A stretch of DNA of 42,073 nt, from NCBI GenBank assembly GCA_026991755.1, contig JALXAX010000165.1, positions 1 to 42,073 on the forward strand, read 5' to 3'. A program made the position numbers and the translations under genes. The stretch's first letter is position 1, and each line of letters opens with the position of its first letter. Below are positions 3,294 through 38,973 of this stretch, one piece after another. The notes under the pieces are model-generated. The model did no database searches, was not told the origin of the DNA, and saw only the letters and a program-made list of their open reading frames with translations. Origin of the DNA: Thiotrichaceae bacterium. GTDB taxonomy: Bacteria; Pseudomonadota; Gammaproteobacteria; Thiotrichales; Thiotrichaceae.

Positions 3294-3530
3294 ACCTGGA
3301 AAATGCAGTTGGATAACTTGTAGAGTGATTCTGTTGGGCTGAATGGCGTAATGAAAAAAGGAATTAATGGTTGATCCTTAATGAGTTTTTTCATATAGCT
3401 AGTCAGCTCAACAGGGTTGCTCTACATGTTGTAGCGTCCTCATTGAATAAGTGAATGATTCTACCGCACATATCTAATCATTTATCAAATGTTAGTATTA
3501 CTTTGTAGTGGTCAACTGCGTTTTCTAGGT
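3294..3530 (-). mobile_element. Family 1 miniature inverted-repeat element, copy A
   Basis: 237-bp non-coding element between argD and rplU. Its ends are inverted: ACCTGGAAAATGCAGTTG on the left and, reading inward from the right, ACCTAGAAAACGCAGTTG. The direct repeat TCA flanks both sides (3291-3293 and 3531-3533). The interior matches copies at 29629 and 36308, but in the opposite orientation: the shared core ACTCATTAAGGATCAACCAT is on the minus strand here. Inner stem CTGTTG (3331-3336) pairs with CAACAG (3409-3414). It fills most of the gap 3118-3627. Confidence 0.85.
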
Positions 3531-19639: not shown

Positions 19640-19759
19640 CTAGTACTCCAACAATATAGGTTTGGCGGGTACAGAGCAATCCAGGGCATTCAAGACACGC
19701 CTAACGGCTAACCGCATCATGGCTCGGTATCCATCAAACCTATGTTGTTGGAGTACTAG
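19640..19759 (-). repeat. Family 3 palindromic element, copy 1
   Basis: 120 bp with long inverted ends: CTAGTACTCCAACAATATAG on the left and, read inward from the right, CTAGTACTCCAACAACATAG; only one base differs over about 24. The left 70 bases, reverse-complemented, match the right end of the element at 28160-28428 (shared GGATTGCTCTGTA and TGTCTTGAA). No coding capacity. It fills the middle of the gap 19424-19813. Confidence 0.75.
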
Positions 19760-28159: not shown

Positions 28160-28428
28160 CTTGTACATCAACCTGCTTAAAATGACGGTGTCAGCGCTTT
28201 TGTGGGGCTTTGCATCAAGGCACAGTGCGCAGGCAATGGCAGCGTCCTTGTCAAGCACTGTAACGCAGAGGCAGAGTCTCACAAATGCGCCCGAAGGGAG
28301 CAACCCAAAGCGCTCAATACTGCGTTATGGGTCTTGCCAAGGGAACAACCATTGCCTGCAACCCAAGCCTTGTCTTGAACGCTTTGGATTGCTCTGTATC
28401 CATCAAACCTAAGTTGATGGAGTACTAG
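28160..28428 (+). repeat. Family 3 palindromic element, copy 2 (longer)
   Basis: About 265 bp. The right end (CATCAAACCTAAG to GGAGTACTAG) matches the ends of the element at 19640-19759; the left end (TACATCAACC) is more diverged. Internal arms pair over long distances: GCAGGCAATGG with CCATTGCCTGC, and AACGCAG with CTGCGTT. An 83-codon frame crosses it but is only a by-product. It occupies most of the 442-base gap 28082-28523. The remainder, 28429-28523, is AT-rich and contains GGTATACC just before the next start. Confidence 0.7.
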
Positions 28429-29628: not shown

Positions 29629-29859
29629 ACCTAGAATCCTGTTACTGCTCTAAGTTATTGCTAAGTATCTGATAAAAAGTAAATAACAATACCAATCTTC
29701 ACTCTTAGAATGAAGGCGCTACACCATATAGAGCAACCCTCACAGACTGACTGGCTATGTAAAAAAACTCATTAAGGATCAACCATTAACTCCTTTTTTC
29801 ACTACGTCACTCAGCCTGTGAGAATTACTCTATAAGCCGTCTAACTGAGGATTCTAGGT
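29629..29859 (+). mobile_element. Family 1 miniature inverted-repeat element, copy B
   Basis: 231 bp. Perfect inverted ends ACCTAGAATCCT and AGGATTCTAGGT, flanked by direct TAA on both sides (29626-29628, 29860-29862). Inner stem CTCACAG (29739-29745) pairs with CTGTGAG (29816-29822); TATAGAG pairs with CTCTATA. The central core ACTCATTAAGGATCAACCAT is shared with copies A and C. Same orientation as copies C and D. It lies in the 515-base gap 29532-30046, of which the right part holds a promoter. Confidence 0.9.
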
Positions 29860-33258: not shown

Positions 33259-34664
33259 TGATTTCACTGTTATGGACAGACGTAATGGTCTGGATTTTAG
33301 TGCTTGCATTGATCGCATGGGGCTGGGTTATTTCGCATTCGCCACAAGTTAGAAAACAATGGCATATGATTTTTCAATCTAATATAGCGATAAGTTGCGC
33401 GGTAATTTTGTTGTTTTATTTGTTCTTTGCTTTGATGGATTCCGTGCACATGCGTTTTGAGGTTGAGACAACTGAAGGCAGTGAGAAAGCAGCCGAAGTG
33501 CAATACCAGGCAGATATGGTCAGTCTGCTCGATCAGTTTTTTAAACATAGTATTGAAAATACTGAGCGTACTTATTCTTCGCCCTTTGCAACTGAGGAAT
33601 ACACCAAGTCGATAGTGGTGGACGATAGTGGTGTATCAAAACAAGAATACTTGCCGTTAAAACATGCAGGTATTGATTTGGACAAGGGTGAAAGTAGCCA
33701 AAGTGATATTCTAGGAAAATCTCTATTTGCATTGCTGGTTGGCTTATTGATCAGTGATCTGTTGATCGCGTTACACATATTCTGGCGAAGTAGAGTAAGC
33801 CGTATCAGCTTTATGGAGCAAATCCAGCAGGTTATCCAAGGCAAAACTCAGCTACCATGGCGTACAGCCTATTTTACCTTCGCGGTACTTATTGTGCTGT
33901 TTACATGGTTGTATTACCTGAGCTTTTCTTATCATGTATTAGGCACAGATAAGGTTGGCGGGGATGTGCTTTATCACAGCCTGAAAAGCATCAGAACAGG
34001 CGTACTTATTGGTATTTTGACGACTTTAGTCATGCTACCTGTTGCTGTGTTCTTAGGTATTAGCGCGGGTTTATTTGGGGGTTGGATTGATGACGTTATC
34101 CAGTATCTCTACACCACACTAAACTCCATCCCCGGTGTGTTATTAATCGCTGCGGGTGTACTGGTGATGCAAGTTACGATGGATAACAACCCGCAATGGT
34201 TTGAAACAACGGTTGAGCGCTCGGATTTACGTTTGATGTTCTTGATTATTATCCTCGGCATCACCAGCTGGACAGGGCTGTGCCGTTTGCTTAGAGCTGA
34301 AACGTTAAAAATATCACAGGTAGAATTTGTTACCGCAGCCAAGGCATTTGGAGTCAGTAAAATGGCTATTATTCGTCGCCATATTATGCCGAACTTAATG
34401 CATATCATTTTGATTTCTGTCGTGCTGGATTTCAGTGGGTTAGTGCTAGCTGAAGCTGTGCTGTCATATGTCGGGGTGGGGGTAGACCCAACCATGCATA
34501 GCTGGGGTAACATGATCAATCAGGCAAGGTTAGAAATGGCGCGTGAGCCGATGGTGTGGTGGTCGCTGTTTTCTGCGTTTATCTTTATGTTTGTGTTAGT
34601 GCTAGCGGCTAACTTGTTTTCTGATCGCATTCAAACCGTTCTAGATCCCAGGAATAACTCATGA
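33255..34664 (+). CDS. ABC importer permease, OppC/DppC type, with long N-terminal extension
   Basis: 469 residues, against about 300 for typical OppC. Residues 1-200 contain extra membrane helices (about 8-27, 44-63, 155-175) and a polar segment of about 85 residues between them. The transport core begins with FTWLYYLSFSYHVLGTDKVG (about 215-235), the usual LGTDxxGRD-like entry, then LYTTLNSIPGVLLIAAGVLV and the EAA loop VTAAKAFGVSKMAIIRRHIM, with VLSYVGVGVDPTMHSWGNMI near the end. Overlaps of 4 bases at both ends couple it to its neighbours. Role of the extension is unknown; it may meet the anchored binding protein. Confidence 0.9.
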   Translation: MMISLLWTDVMVWILVLALIAWGWVISHSPQVRKQWHMIFQSNIAISCAVILLFYLFFALMDSVHMRFEVETTEGSEKAAEVQYQADMVSLLDQFFKHSIENTERTYSSPFATEEYTKSIVVDDSGVSKQEYLPLKHAGIDLDKGESSQSDILGKSLFALLVGLLISDLLIALHIFWRSRVSRISFMEQIQQVIQGKTQLPWRTAYFTFAVLIVLFTWLYYLSFSYHVLGTDKVGGDVLYHSLKSIRTGVLIGILTTLVMLPVAVFLGISAGLFGGWIDDVIQYLYTTLNSIPGVLLIAAGVLVMQVTMDNNPQWFETTVERSDLRLMFLIIILGITSWTGLCRLLRAETLKISQVEFVTAAKAFGVSKMAIIRRHIMPNLMHIILISVVLDFSGLVLAEAVLSYVGVGVDPTMHSWGNMINQARLEMAREPMVWWSLFSAFIFMFVLVLAANLFSDRIQTVLDPRNNS

Positions 34665-36307
34665 TGAAGTCTACTGCGTCTACCCAGCCGATACTTAGCG
34701 TGCGTGATCTTTCATTGGTAGTTGATAAGACCAGCGAGCTTTTATTAAAGTCGATTAGTTTTGATATTCAGGCAGGTGAAATTTTTGCCTTGGTGGGTGA
34801 ATCTGGCAGTGGTAAGTCACTTACTTCCTTGGCGATTATGCGCTTATTACCTGACGCATTACGCGTGACAGCTGGTGATATTAGTTTGCATCAGCAGTCG
34901 TTGTTTGCGATTCCTGAAGTGCAAATGCAGAAAATACGTGGCAAATCCATTGCGATGATCTTTCAAGAGCCTATGACTGCACTTAACCCTGTTATGACAA
35001 CAGGTGAGCAAGTGGCAGAAGTGATAAGGGTTCATCTGGGGCTAGAGAATGCAGCAGTAAAAGCCAAAGTAATCTCCTTGTTTGAAGAAGTCGGGCTTAA
35101 AAATGCTGAGCAACGCTATAACTGGTATCCACATCAGCTATCAGGCGGGCAAAAGCAACGAGTGATGATAGCTATGGCGCTAGCATGCGAGCCTGATCTG
35201 TTAATTGCTGATGAGCCAACAACCGCTTTAGATGTAACTATTCAGGCACAAGTTTTGGCATTACTTAAACAAATTAGACAAGACCGTGGTTTATCTATTT
35301 TGTTTATCACTCACGACATGGGTGTTGTAGCGGAAATGGCAGATCAAGTAGCTGTGATGCGTGATGGTGAGATTTTAGAGCAGGCAGAATGCAATCACTT
35401 TTTTACTAACCCTGAGCATCCGTATACCCAAAGTTTATTAAAAGATGCAATCCCTTCAAAAGGCCGAAAGACTGAGGAAGCTAATGATGTTAGTAAGCTA
35501 CTTGAGGTTACTGATCTAAAAGTCCATTTCCCTATAAAAAAGGGCTTACTACAACGAACCATTGGTTATGTAAAAGCCGTTGATGGCGTAACCTTGAGTA
35601 TTCCTAAAGGGAAAACACTGGCTTTGGTGGGTGAATCGGGCAGTGGTAAAAGCACCATCGGGCAAGCTATTTTAAGGTTAATTAAGAAAACAGAAGGAAA
35701 AGTTAGCTTCGATAGTATCGACTTAGCTCAACTAACCGAGAAACAGCTCAAGCCGTATCGACGCAAAATACAAATTATTTTCCAAGACCCTTATTCAGCG
35801 CTTAACCCCCGTATGACTATTGGCGAAATTATCCGTGAAGGTATGAATAGCCTAAAAGTAGGGTCACGAGATAAAGCAGGACAAGACGCTCGAATCAAAG
35901 AGTTGCTTCTAAAAGTAGATTTAGAGGCCGAGCATGCAGAGCGTTATCCGCATGAGTTTTCAGGAGGTCAGCGGCAGCGCATAGGTATTGCCAGAGCGCT
36001 AGCGGTAGAGCCAGAGCTGATTATTTGTGACGAACCTACCAGTGCACTTGATGTATCAGTGCGAGCACAGGTGTTACAGTTGCTAAGTGATTTGCAACAA
36101 GATTATGGTGTGTCGTATCTATTTATCACTCATGACTTATCAATTATCCCGACCATTGCCCACGAAGTGGCTGTGATGAAAGAAGGTAAAATCGTTGAGC
36201 AAGGTTTGGTTGCAGATATCATGAAAAATCCACAGCAAGCATATACACAGAAATTATTGGCGTCTGCACCTAAGCTGGTTCGGGATCATATTGCTGGTAT
36301 AGGTTGA
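34661..36307 (+). CDS. ABC importer ATPase, fused double domain (DppD-DppF / YejF type)
   Basis: 548 residues with two complete nucleotide-binding domains. Domain 1: Walker A GESGSGKS (46-53), signature LSGGQKQRV, Walker B LLIADEPTTALD, switch His in LFITHDMG. Domain 2: Walker A GESGSGKST (about 325-333), signature FSGGQRQRI, Walker B LIICDEPTSALD, LFITHDLS. The oligopeptide-type C-terminal parts (ILEQAECNHFFTNPEHPYTQ and QQAYTQKLLASAP) follow each domain. The fusion provides both ATPases of the importer. The stop codon TGA is exactly the left target repeat of a family 1 element. Confidence 0.95.
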   Translation: MMKSTASTQPILSVRDLSLVVDKTSELLLKSISFDIQAGEIFALVGESGSGKSLTSLAIMRLLPDALRVTAGDISLHQQSLFAIPEVQMQKIRGKSIAMIFQEPMTALNPVMTTGEQVAEVIRVHLGLENAAVKAKVISLFEEVGLKNAEQRYNWYPHQLSGGQKQRVMIAMALACEPDLLIADEPTTALDVTIQAQVLALLKQIRQDRGLSILFITHDMGVVAEMADQVAVMRDGEILEQAECNHFFTNPEHPYTQSLLKDAIPSKGRKTEEANDVSKLLEVTDLKVHFPIKKGLLQRTIGYVKAVDGVTLSIPKGKTLALVGESGSGKSTIGQAILRLIKKTEGKVSFDSIDLAQLTEKQLKPYRRKIQIIFQDPYSALNPRMTIGEIIREGMNSLKVGSRDKAGQDARIKELLLKVDLEAEHAERYPHEFSGGQRQRIGIARALAVEPELIICDEPTSALDVSVRAQVLQLLSDLQQDYGVSYLFITHDLSIIPTIAHEVAVMKEGKIVEQGLVADIMKNPQQAYTQKLLASAPKLVRDHIAGIG

Positions 36308-36582
36308 ACCTAAATTCCTCAGTTAACCGCTTCCAGTACTGGTTAAACTGATGATAATATTAAAGTAAATAGTCTTGTCTGTCTTCACTTGTAGAGTGAA
36401 GGCGCTACAGCCTATAGAGCAACCCTGCTGAAGCTTCTAAGTTTCGCTAAAGCTCAACTAAGTCTTCGGCTGACTGGCTATGTAAAAAAACTCATTAAGG
36501 ATCAACCATTGATTCCTTTTTTCACTACGCCATTCAGCCGAAGAGAATCACTCTATAGGCTGTCTAACTGAGGATTTTAGGT
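36308..36582 (+). mobile_element. Family 1 miniature inverted-repeat element, copy C
   Basis: 275 bp with ends ACCTAAATTCCTCAGTTAAC (left) and, read inward from the right, ACCTAAAATCCTCAGTTAGA. Direct TGA flanks both sides (36305-36307, which is the ATPase stop, and 36583-36585). A perfect 13-bp arm ACAGCCTATAGAG (36407-36419) pairs with CTCTATAGGCTGT (36551-36563), and CTTCGGCTGA (36464-36473) pairs with TCAGCCGAAG (36534-36543). It is longer than copy B by an extra segment near 36426-36463. It fills the gap 36308-36666. Confidence 0.9.
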
Positions 36583-36666
36583 TGAACCACTTGTCGATAT
36601 TAAGCTTATCTTAACCCTGTAAAGAGCATAGTGGGATTACCCTAAAATAATAAAAAAAGACCCCCT

Positions 36667-37326
36667 ATGACCTCTTTTCCTAAGAAAGTGCTAGCATTTG
36701 GCGTTAGCTTATCTCTTCTGTCAACGCTTTTTCTATCATCCGCTTCGTTTGCGGGTGTGGCTAATTATCCTGCGCAACAACAGTGGCAAGGTGCAGCTGT
36801 TTATTCAATGTTCGATACTATGGGTAGCGGCGTGCCTGTTTCTCAATGTCATGTTTTAACGAATGAACATGTGGTGCGTGGCAGTAAACGTGCCAACGTT
36901 GATATCGCGGGTGAGCGCTATACAGCAACAGTTATTTCAATAGATAGTGATAACGATATGGCGTTGTTGAAGGTAAGTGGTTGTCCAATCGAGTATTTTG
37001 CTAAGCTCTCTAAAGTAGCTCCTAAAAAAGGCGATATGTTGACCTCTGTTTATTATAAGCCAGGCTTTAACTTCTTTCGCAGGATGACAAAAACCAAAGG
37101 GAAGTTTGTAGGTTTTGGGCAAATGCTTACTGAAGAAGACAAAATAATGACGTCAATGATTATTGATGATAAGCGTCCGCGTATTGGTTCATCAGGTGGG
37201 GGTATTTCAACTAAGAATGGTTTGGTTTCGATTATCTACGGTGTTGCGTCCAAGTATGCAAAGCCGACGACTTACGCGATTAGCTATGATGCGCTTAAAG
37301 CTTTTATGCATAAAAATCATATCTAG
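36667..37326 (+). CDS. Secreted trypsin-like serine protease (minimal)
   Basis: 219 residues. Signal peptide ends near SASFAG (about 30). The S1-type triad is His68 (TNEHVVRG), Asp97 (DSDNDMALL) and Ser176 (IGSSGGGI). Cys61 and Cys106 are placed so that a disulfide could link the His and Asp regions. No PDZ or other domain follows. Expected location is the periplasm or outside. It is unrelated in operon to the larger protease at 9619-10878. There is no clear strong ribosome site before the ATG; an A-rich tract precedes it. Confidence 0.82.
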   Translation: MTSFPKKVLAFGVSLSLLSTLFLSSASFAGVANYPAQQQWQGAAVYSMFDTMGSGVPVSQCHVLTNEHVVRGSKRANVDIAGERYTATVISIDSDNDMALLKVSGCPIEYFAKLSKVAPKKGDMLTSVYYKPGFNFFRRMTKTKGKFVGFGQMLTEEDKIMTSMIIDDKRPRIGSSGGGISTKNGLVSIIYGVASKYAKPTTYAISYDALKAFMHKNHI

Positions 37327-37444: not shown

Positions 37445-38923
37445 ATGCAGTTTATCGAATCACGTGGCAACGACGGCAAGCGTCCGTCTTCTGTTAGCTT
37501 TTCTTCCGCTATTCTTGAGCCAATGGCCTCATTCGGAGGTATATATGTGCCAGAAAACTTACCTGATTTAGGCAGTGATTTCTTAGCTAACCATGTGGAT
37601 GCTAACTATAAACAACTAGCAAAAGATATTTTAAATGCCTTTGCCATTGATATCGAAGCAGACGTTATTGATGCGGCACTTGATCGTTATGATGAGTTTG
37701 ACGACCCTACAAATCCTGTTCCTGTCGTTAAAGTGAAAGATCAGCTTTATGTGAGTGAGCTTTGGCATGGTGCAACACGTGCCTTTAAAGACATGGCATT
37801 ACAGCCTTTTGGAGTGGTGCTTTCAGCAATTGCACAACAGCGCGATGAGAAGTATCTCATTTTAACAGCAACCAGTGGTGATACGGGGCCAGCTGCGCTA
37901 GAAACCTTTAAGAATAAAGATAATGTGCAGGTGGCTTGTTTGTATCCTGATGGTGGCACATCTGATGTGCAACGTTTGCAGATGGTGACTGAAGACGCTG
38001 AAAATCTAAAGGTCATCGGTATTCACGGAAACTTTGATGATGCTCAAAAAGCGCTAAAGTCGTTGCTTAGTTCAGACACTTTCAAAGCAAAGTTACAAGA
38101 AAATAAGATTCACTTGTCAGCGGCTAACTCGGTTAATTTTGGTCGCATCATTTTCCAACTTATTTATCATATTCATAGCTACTTGGAGCTAGTTTGCCAA
38201 GGTGAGATAGCCCTAGGTGAAAAGATATATTTAGACGTGCCTAGTGGTAACTTTGGTAATGCATTGGGTGGCTTTTATGCCGCTCAAATGGGGTTGCCTA
38301 TTGAGAAAATCCTAATTGCTTCGAATCAGAACAACATACTTACCGAATTAATCAATACGGGTAAATATGATCTGCGCAGTTCTGAGCTTATTGCAACTAC
38401 ATCACCTGCAATGGATATTCTTATTTCATCTAATGTAGAGCGTATTCTTTATGCCCTATTTGGCAGTGAAAGAACAAAAGAGTTGTTATCGCAATTAGAG
38501 TTTGAGAAGTTTTATGAGTTAACGGCTGATGAACTAGCTCAATTAAAAAAATATTTTGTAGCAGACTTCTGCACCGATGAAGAAGGTAAAGATTACATCA
38601 AAAAAGCTTTTGCAGCGGGTTACTTAATGGATCCGCACACTGCAACTTGTTTCAAAGCCTTTGATACAGTGCGCGAACAACCTTTAAAGACAATCGCTTA
38701 CTCAACAGCTGAGTGGACAAAGTTCTCCCCAACCATTGCTAATGCACTAACAGGTGAACAAGGGGCTAAGGATATTGATGCGTTACAGGCGATTGCTAGA
38801 GAGGCAAAAATTAAGATTCCTGAATCTATTCAAAGCTTATTTGATAAAAAGGTAGTTCAGGATAGTGTGGTAGATAAAGAAAATATTGAAACAGAGATAC
38901 TGGCTTTCTTGATTAAGAATTAA
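37445..38923 (+). CDS. thrC: Threonine synthase
   Basis: 492 residues, the long gammaproteobacterial/yeast-like class. The N terminus has FIESRGNDGKRPSSVSFSSA, then FGGIYVPENLP. The PLP lysine is in HGATRAFKDMALQPFG (about 103-118), followed by LTATSGDTGPAALETF and VACLYPDGGTSDVQRLQM. Later SAANSVNFGRIIFQL and VPSGNFGNALGGFYA bind substrate and phosphate. It converts O-phosphohomoserine to threonine. thrA/thrB are not adjacent. Its stop codon TAA is the left target repeat of a short family 1 element. Confidence 0.95.
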   Translation: MQFIESRGNDGKRPSSVSFSSAILEPMASFGGIYVPENLPDLGSDFLANHVDANYKQLAKDILNAFAIDIEADVIDAALDRYDEFDDPTNPVPVVKVKDQLYVSELWHGATRAFKDMALQPFGVVLSAIAQQRDEKYLILTATSGDTGPAALETFKNKDNVQVACLYPDGGTSDVQRLQMVTEDAENLKVIGIHGNFDDAQKALKSLLSSDTFKAKLQENKIHLSAANSVNFGRIIFQLIYHIHSYLELVCQGEIALGEKIYLDVPSGNFGNALGGFYAAQMGLPIEKILIASNQNNILTELINTGKYDLRSSELIATTSPAMDILISSNVERILYALFGSERTKELLSQLEFEKFYELTADELAQLKKYFVADFCTDEEGKDYIKKAFAAGYLMDPHTATCFKAFDTVREQPLKTIAYSTAEWTKFSPTIANALTGEQGAKDIDALQAIAREAKIKIPESIQSLFDKKVVQDSVVDKENIETEILAFLIKN

Positions 38924-38973
38924 ACCTAGAAAACAGAATCACTCTACAAGTTGTCCAACTGCGTTATCTAGGT
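38924..38973 (+). mobile_element. Family 1 miniature element, copy D (internally deleted)
   Basis: 50 bp. ACCTAGAAAAC at the left joins directly to CAGAATCACTCTACAAGTTG, the right-arm sequence of copy A, and ends CTAGGT. Direct TAA flanks it (38921-38923, the thrC stop, and 38974-38976). It has lost the whole interior, leaving the two ends. Confidence 0.8.

Follow-up and report, generated by a model that had tools for sequence, protein, structure and literature searches.

What keeps the two arms of a long hairpin complementary when their letters differ from one copy of a repeat to the next, and on which molecule does that pairing matter? The question is raised by positions 36407 to 36563 of a 42,073-nucleotide stretch from a Thiotrichaceae bacterium (the window, by which we mean the whole stretch of DNA analysed). 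The original prediction held that three copies of a repeat in the window, A, B and C, had changed both arms together, so that base pairing itself would be maintained, either through a DNA cruciform or transposition mechanism or as an RNA structure. All of the stem arms that it quoted are present where it had placed them, and 36407-36563 is exactly the hairpin of copy C.

Copy C lies on the plus strand at 36309..36581 and measures 273 bp including an inserted module, M1 (36427..36463, plus strand), or about 236 bp without it. Its first and last bases are 17-bp terminal inverted repeats on the plus strand, CCTAAATTCCTCAGTTA at 36309..36325 and TAACTGAGGATTTTAGG at 36565..36581, which follow the general form of the element's ends, CCTA(A/G)AATCCTCAGTT. 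It is bordered by a target duplication, TTGAA at 36304-36308 and 36582-36586, and the stop codon TGA (36305-36307) of the open reading frame at 34661-36307 falls inside the left one. The long hairpin starts with ACAGCCTATAGAG, finishes with CTCTATAGGCTGT, pairs on the minus strand with G.U wobbles, and has M1 at one side of its stem base. Its outer arms are CCTATAGAG (36411-36419) and CTCTATAGG (36551-36559), its inner stem joins CTTCGGCTGA (36464..36473) to TCAGCCGAAG (36534..36543), and its apical core is the 24-nt AAAACTCATTAAGGATCAACCATT (36487..36510); a second small hairpin, HP1, is formed by CTTCACTTGTAGAGTGAAG at 36383..36401. There are no open reading frames of 80 or more amino acids within 36309-36581. 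A flanking gene encodes an ABC ATPase, relatives of which occur in records of Thiomicrorhabdus (73%) and Thiotrichales (68%) and in a MAG labelled Sulfurovum (76%), so that the host is probably a gammaproteobacterium.

Copy A (3295..3529, minus strand; hairpin 3313-3432, stem CTGTTG/CAACAG, target duplication TTGAA) and copy B (29630..29858, plus strand; hairpin 29721-29840, stem CTCACAG/CTGTGAG, target duplication TTAAA) have the same design as copy C. Copy D (38925..38972, plus strand, target duplication TTAAA) is an internally deleted remnant, and the stop codon of the open reading frame at 37445-38923 is inside its left target duplication. The window also holds another repeat pair (19640-19759 and 28366-28428): an inverted repeat of 41 nt around CTAGTACTCCAACA..TGTTGGAGTACTAG, of which one more copy lies near 28.4 kb.

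In the genome to which the window belongs (G000, 3.66 Mb in 207 contigs), a search tolerating up to 3 mismatches found the 24-nt core at 72 places, 61 of them identical and 11 with one mismatch, and the reversed pattern used as a control had 0 matches; the 16-nt end, with up to 2 mismatches allowed, matched 170 places and its control 2. Both ends could be placed in 56 of the 72 copies, leaving aside L041 and L063, for which the script had set the ends wrongly. The 5-mers that flank these 56 copies are identical in 39 and differ by one base in 12 more, and the pattern (A/T)TNAA fits 32 of the 39 identical duplications. Copies with both ends correctly located, again without L041 and L063, are 229-238 bp long without modules and up to 322 bp with them. 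By a simple open-reading-frame test, none of the 72 copies is spanned by a reading frame and all are intergenic. Several contigs (for example C36, C116, C135, C151 and C183) terminate in or near a copy, and because the draft assembly breaks at copies the element may be undercounted. The element is thus a MITE: short and non-coding, with 17-bp terminal inverted repeats, a fixed 5-bp target duplication and many dispersed copies. We rejected identity with REP or BIME sequences, which are defined as palindromes of 20-40 bp (PMC3733652, in the part available), since the element is about 236 bp long and has terminal repeats and target duplications.

Two small modules vary among the copies. In 26 copies M1 occupies the left stem base, and 8 of these have M2 as well; in 5 it is found in reverse at the right stem base, and the other 41 copies are free of both modules. 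The reversed M1 occupies the mirror position in L011, L019, L023, L042 and L050, in which the core is unturned. Recognised by its core, GAAGCTTCTAAGTTTCGCTAAAGC, M1 is found at 80 places in G000, against 31 element copies that bear it. Elsewhere it occurs inside another dispersed repeat, in the context cctgacaaattctaTCTGCTG..AAGTctcagaaattccgat (for example at L184, L174 and L006), and L230, a repeat of the related genome G014 that resembles this one, is by eye apparently without M1, so that M1 may be a small module able to insert into other repeats. A stand-alone M1 lies near L056, and in the subfamily alignment a stand-alone M1 was probably cut from L006 instead of its inner one (its row is without the left end). 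M2 is 48 bp long and has its own hairpin, ACACCTACA..TGTAGGTGT; its 8 carriers (L018, L026, L032, L044, L051, L055, L074 and L076), all of which also have M1 on the left, belong to two different stem subfamilies and bear it at a single site 3' of the apex. In L162, a truncated copy at about 535-700 of contig C98 of G000, the apical region has turned into an almost perfect palindrome, whose arms are AAAAAAGCTCATTAA and TTAATGAGCTTTTTT, likely by a template-switch event.

If pairing is maintained in this family, it should be visible both in the fold of single copies and in the history of the stems. Copy C folds at -101.7 kcal/mol on the plus strand and -107.8 kcal/mol on the minus strand, where shuffled sequences average -60.8 and -67.3; with z scores of -9.0 and -8.3, respectively, chance is ruled out for this fold. 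We aligned 38 sequences, comprising 36 of the 41 module-free copies of G000 (duplicates and cut copies excluded) and 2 from G014. In this alignment the minus-strand consensus hairpin has 49 pairs, 24 of which have changed on both sides, against a mean of 8.1 in column shuffles. Standard pairs make up 98.3% of the pair cells, and when the partner is slid by 1-3 columns only 39-47% are paired.

Because kinship among copies inflates counts of both-sides change, we ran tree-aware tests, a G-test and event counts, in our own implementations. The R-scape-like G-test with a tree-based null passed 1 of 67 pairs at E<=0.05 when applied pair by pair, and no pair in its all-pairs version; the per-pair test is weak here because most stem differences separate a few subfamilies from one another. 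When the tree was built from all columns, we counted 22 both-sides Watson-Crick changes over all helices (null mean 2.4, maximum 7 in 400). A tree built only from columns outside the hairpin gave 27 double changes from one Watson-Crick pair to another in the inner hairpin; when stem substitutions were re-dealt among stem columns in 1000 runs, the mean was 3.0 and the maximum 10. Four of the 74 rows, too gappy or duplicate, were dropped for the per-pair test and the all-column tree, and one further row for the outside-column tree, which used 69. The larger alignment on which the original prediction had staked its covariation is therefore near-null pair by pair and rejects the null by event counts. 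Whole stems differ at neighbouring positions between subfamilies. These results support a real family hairpin with compensatory stems, in which the pairing itself has been maintained. The inversion of a single stem, which the prediction had named as a competing source of the arms, is a misfit, with the core in standard orientation in 68 of the 72 copies; in the remaining 4 the loose orientation test was matched in either direction, since the element is almost a palindrome.

The departures from perfect pairing bear on which molecule is concerned. With pairs defined by Watson-Crick complementarity and the helices OUT, S, TGGC, A and AP summed, the 43 pairs of the inner hairpin depart from Watson-Crick on the plus strand as A.C in 193 cells and as G.T in 12. 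Two positions supply 71 and 36 of the A.C cells, and counted by position A.C exceeds G.T at 20, with the reverse at 2 and one tie. An A.C on the plus strand is a G.U on the minus strand, which therefore stays paired: over the 38 sequences, the minus strand has G.U in 215 cells and A.C in 9. The internal branches of the outside-column tree have 18 A.C and 0 G.T changes on the plus strand, and the excess of A.C over G.T was matched in 0 of 1000 re-dealings of the stem substitutions. The consensus folds at -68.6 kcal/mol when read on the minus strand and at -31.4 kcal/mol on the plus strand, and the minus strand is the lower in 38 of 38 sequences. What appears on the plus strand as an internal loop closes on the minus strand by four G.U pairs, present in 31-35 of the 38 sequences, and several stem positions show the series GC, A.C, AT on the plus strand. 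There is no one-strand excess of this kind in the ends (A.C/G.T 19/10) or in HP1 (13/19).

Mutation bias was considered as a cause of this asymmetry and rejected. Excluding branches above more than 60 copies, G>A plus T>C changes stand against C>T plus A>G changes at 30 to 42 on shared branches and 59 to 77 on leaf branches in the unpaired columns, which lean the opposite way, and the re-dealing described above never reached the observed excess. The same spectrum is even in the inner stem columns (57 to 53) and leans mildly to A.C-making changes in the columns of the terminal repeats and HP1 (40 to 29). Variants private to 1-2 copies of the main subfamily show no wobble-type excess (7 vs 14), and leaf events on the all-column tree do show one (38 vs 14), so that the constraint may hold every copy or only the lineages that spread. 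The wobble pattern suggests that just one strand needs to pair, which would be typical of RNA but not of a DNA cruciform. Because it is one-sided, we favour RNA of the minus strand, or less likely single-stranded DNA, over a cruciform. The claim that base pairing is kept thus stands, and of the two molecular options that accompanied it RNA is favoured over the cruciform.

The asymmetry extends to relatives of the element. Among 63 genomes from the GTDB family, 2 contain the core, and under strict filters an RNA model matches at least 2 of the 63, the same 2; element DNA is found in 3 of the 6 genomes of the genus, and a wider scan of genome contigs, with near genomes left out, returned 0 exact cores. 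Two sister species, G014 and G016, have elements whose ends are the same and whose inner sequence differs, with 42-56% identity to a copy of G000. Nine loci of these species were examined, and the six with both ends and the inner hairpin were folded; L230, L231 and L233, truncated or internally deleted, were left out. Five of the six are 235-237 nt long and the sixth is 263 nt. The minus strand folds better in 6 of 6, with minus/plus energies of -70.6/-48.4, -63.6/-42.0, -48.2/-28.6, -45.4/-30.0, -72.1/-57.6 and -48.5/-15.6 kcal/mol; G.U pairs number 5-12 on the minus strand and 0-5 on the plus strand. Since five of them are 66-90% alike in the hairpin and L197, which is also among the 38 aligned sequences, is only 37-41% alike to these, the six amount to two independent groups. 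By eye, HP1 of cousin L236 appears to use G.U pairs on the plus strand, the reverse of what the main hairpin does.

If the constrained molecule is RNA, the minus strand would have to be transcribed. There are two weak promoter-like sites (shuffles mean 0.8, sd 0.8), both on the minus strand, and one of them, whose -10 lies in the right end, is directed into the hairpin; terminator-like sites in 36250-36700 number 0. A promoter in the right-end flank was rejected, as 63 right flanks show no excess of -35 sites at the right spacing (2.60 vs 2.33-2.60 elsewhere). The genes around the copies are arranged ++ in 16 cases, -- in 13, convergently in 17 and divergently in 9, with one side unknown in 17. 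With no strand preference in this even gene orientation, host use of the element as an untranslated region in one direction is unsupported, and we rejected it. A known Rfam family was likewise rejected, since the only families in the window are tRNAs and the best weak match for 36300-36590 has an E of 0.87.

Read on the minus strand of 36487-36510, the apical core gives AAGGA, four bases and then ATG GTT GAT CCT TAA TGA, a ribosome-site-like start followed by a four-codon frame that ends at TAA. This frame is part of the 24-mer, which has identical letters at 61 of 72 places, but cousin L197 does not have the frame; the short apical AATGGT recurs in cousins L197, L234 and L236.

The ends of the element are presumably similar to those of ISEcp1. 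They begin with CCTA, and this, together with target duplications that are mostly (A/T)TNAA, likens the element to the IS1380 family and to piggyBac, which duplicates TTAA and has IS1380 as its outgroup (PMC10813416, in the part available). At the IS1380-type fragments found in this genus, no copy of the element's ends was seen. Broken pieces of IS1380-type transposases lie at G000:C108:4623-5444 and G000:C140:38962-47419, and the repeats upstream of them include CCTGAATCCGTGACTTC, which by eye starts like the element's ends and is otherwise different. The PF13701 hits of the 6 genus genomes, which are draft assemblies, comprised 4 loci in G000 and 1 in G015 and revealed no parent that has the element's ends.

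Our main reading, to which we give a probability of about 0.6, is that of a MITE, perhaps mobilised by IS1380, whose spreading lineages keep a hairpin of about 49 pairs in a putative RNA of the minus strand. The element, about 236 nt long, would be a non-autonomous terminal-inverted-repeat transposon that depends on a transposase acting in trans; this enzyme would leave 5-bp duplications and is possibly of IS1380 type. The constraint would act on RNA of the minus strand, presumably produced when the element is transcribed, and the lineages that keep the hairpin would be those that spread, their stems drifting step by step by way of G.U around an apical core that hardly changes. The use of G.U would also weaken the DNA palindrome, so that a long RNA hairpin could be easier to carry in DNA. 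Candidate roles for such an RNA are shielding from incoming transcription, processing by RNase III, or a direct part in mobilisation; it may promote mobility or do no more than render the insertion tolerable. One-strand wobble, the GC-G.U-AU series, the near-fixed core and the near-constant length fit selection on RNA better than selection on a cruciform. It is conceivable, and in our estimate quite doubtful, that the minus-strand RNA hairpin is needed in cis for mobilisation, so that the transposon would spread only when its transcript folds, with RNA structure and not the DNA sequence between the ends as the inherited requirement.

If selection acted instead on the minus strand as single-stranded DNA, in a lagging-strand template or a transposition intermediate, G.T would need to be tolerated better than A.C, and G.T is indeed the better mismatch in DNA. 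The one-strand pattern would suit any single-stranded molecule, and energies calculated with DNA parameters again place the minus strand lower in 38 of 38 sequences. We nevertheless consider this unlikely. The four G.U pairs kept in 31-35 of the 38 sequences should cost more in DNA than in RNA, and by analogy the fixed 5-bp duplications and terminal inverted repeats would point to double-stranded transposition.

Arms that look compensatory could also arise with no selection at all, through template switching that repairs one arm of an imperfect palindrome from the other. The near-perfect palindrome that L162 has acquired and the whole stems that differ at neighbouring positions between subfamilies are what such repair could leave behind. 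It would, however, have no strand preference and would erase wobbles, and yet wobbles persist on one strand; the four conserved G.U pairs (31-35 of 38 sequences) would be expected to have been converted to Watson-Crick pairs, and the GC, A.C, AT series at several positions also stands against it. As an account of the family, template switching therefore seems to us improbable.

We give still less credence to a vestige, in which the hairpin would serve an autonomous parent, for example by guarding its transposase mRNA, and the subfamilies would be separate deletion products of different parents. The IS1380-type fragments in the genome are in keeping with this, but the PF13701 hits of the 6 genus genomes yielded no parent with these ends, and separate deletions would not readily produce the near-constant length of 235-237 nt seen in 5 of the 6 cousins. 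A DNA cruciform or palindrome required for transposition, which a long imperfect palindrome with terminal repeats might bring to mind, would use both strands equally and is hardly credible with A.C at 193 cells against G.T at 12, and at 18 against 0 on internal branches.

Bacterial MITEs are usually regarded as ends plus filler. Under the minus-strand RNA reading, the filler of this element would have been rebuilt letter by letter with its one-strand hairpin kept, as it is in the cousins despite their different inner sequence. A role in cis for RNA in a DNA transposon thereby becomes testable. For any palindromic repeat, counting A.C against G.T offers a simple way to tell RNA from cruciform. 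In the literature searched, which left most subscription papers outside its scope, we recognised no case of one-strand wobble conservation in a MITE.

Comparison with known systems helps to place this result. Correia elements duplicate TA, and the present element differs from them in its ends and in its target duplication, mostly (A/T)TNAA. The likeness lies in small size and hairpin formation: Correia/NEMIS are small elements whose transcripts form hairpins and are reported to be cleaved by RNase III at the terminal repeats (PMC10969869, in the part available). The bcr1-bcr18 repeats of the Bacillus cereus group are likewise interspersed and intergenic, in another phylum, and are likened here by description and not by sequence comparison; bcr1-3 are MITE-like, and bcr10 and bcr18 have conserved secondary structures and are transcribed in 5' untranslated regions, and the available part of the same paper makes no statement on one-strand wobble in these repeats (PMC3446304). 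ERIC/IRU too are a long single stem-loop that recurs in intergenic regions. For these and other stem-loop families folding has been described as usually common to both strands unless GU pairing is essential, and the term "compensatory" is absent from the main text of that paper, in the part available (PMC2267715). In the present element, by contrast, GU pairing makes the fold strongly one-stranded, and the stems are rebuilt between subfamilies. Hairpin-forming repeats such as ERIC, Correia and bcr are already well known; what is new here is the strand.
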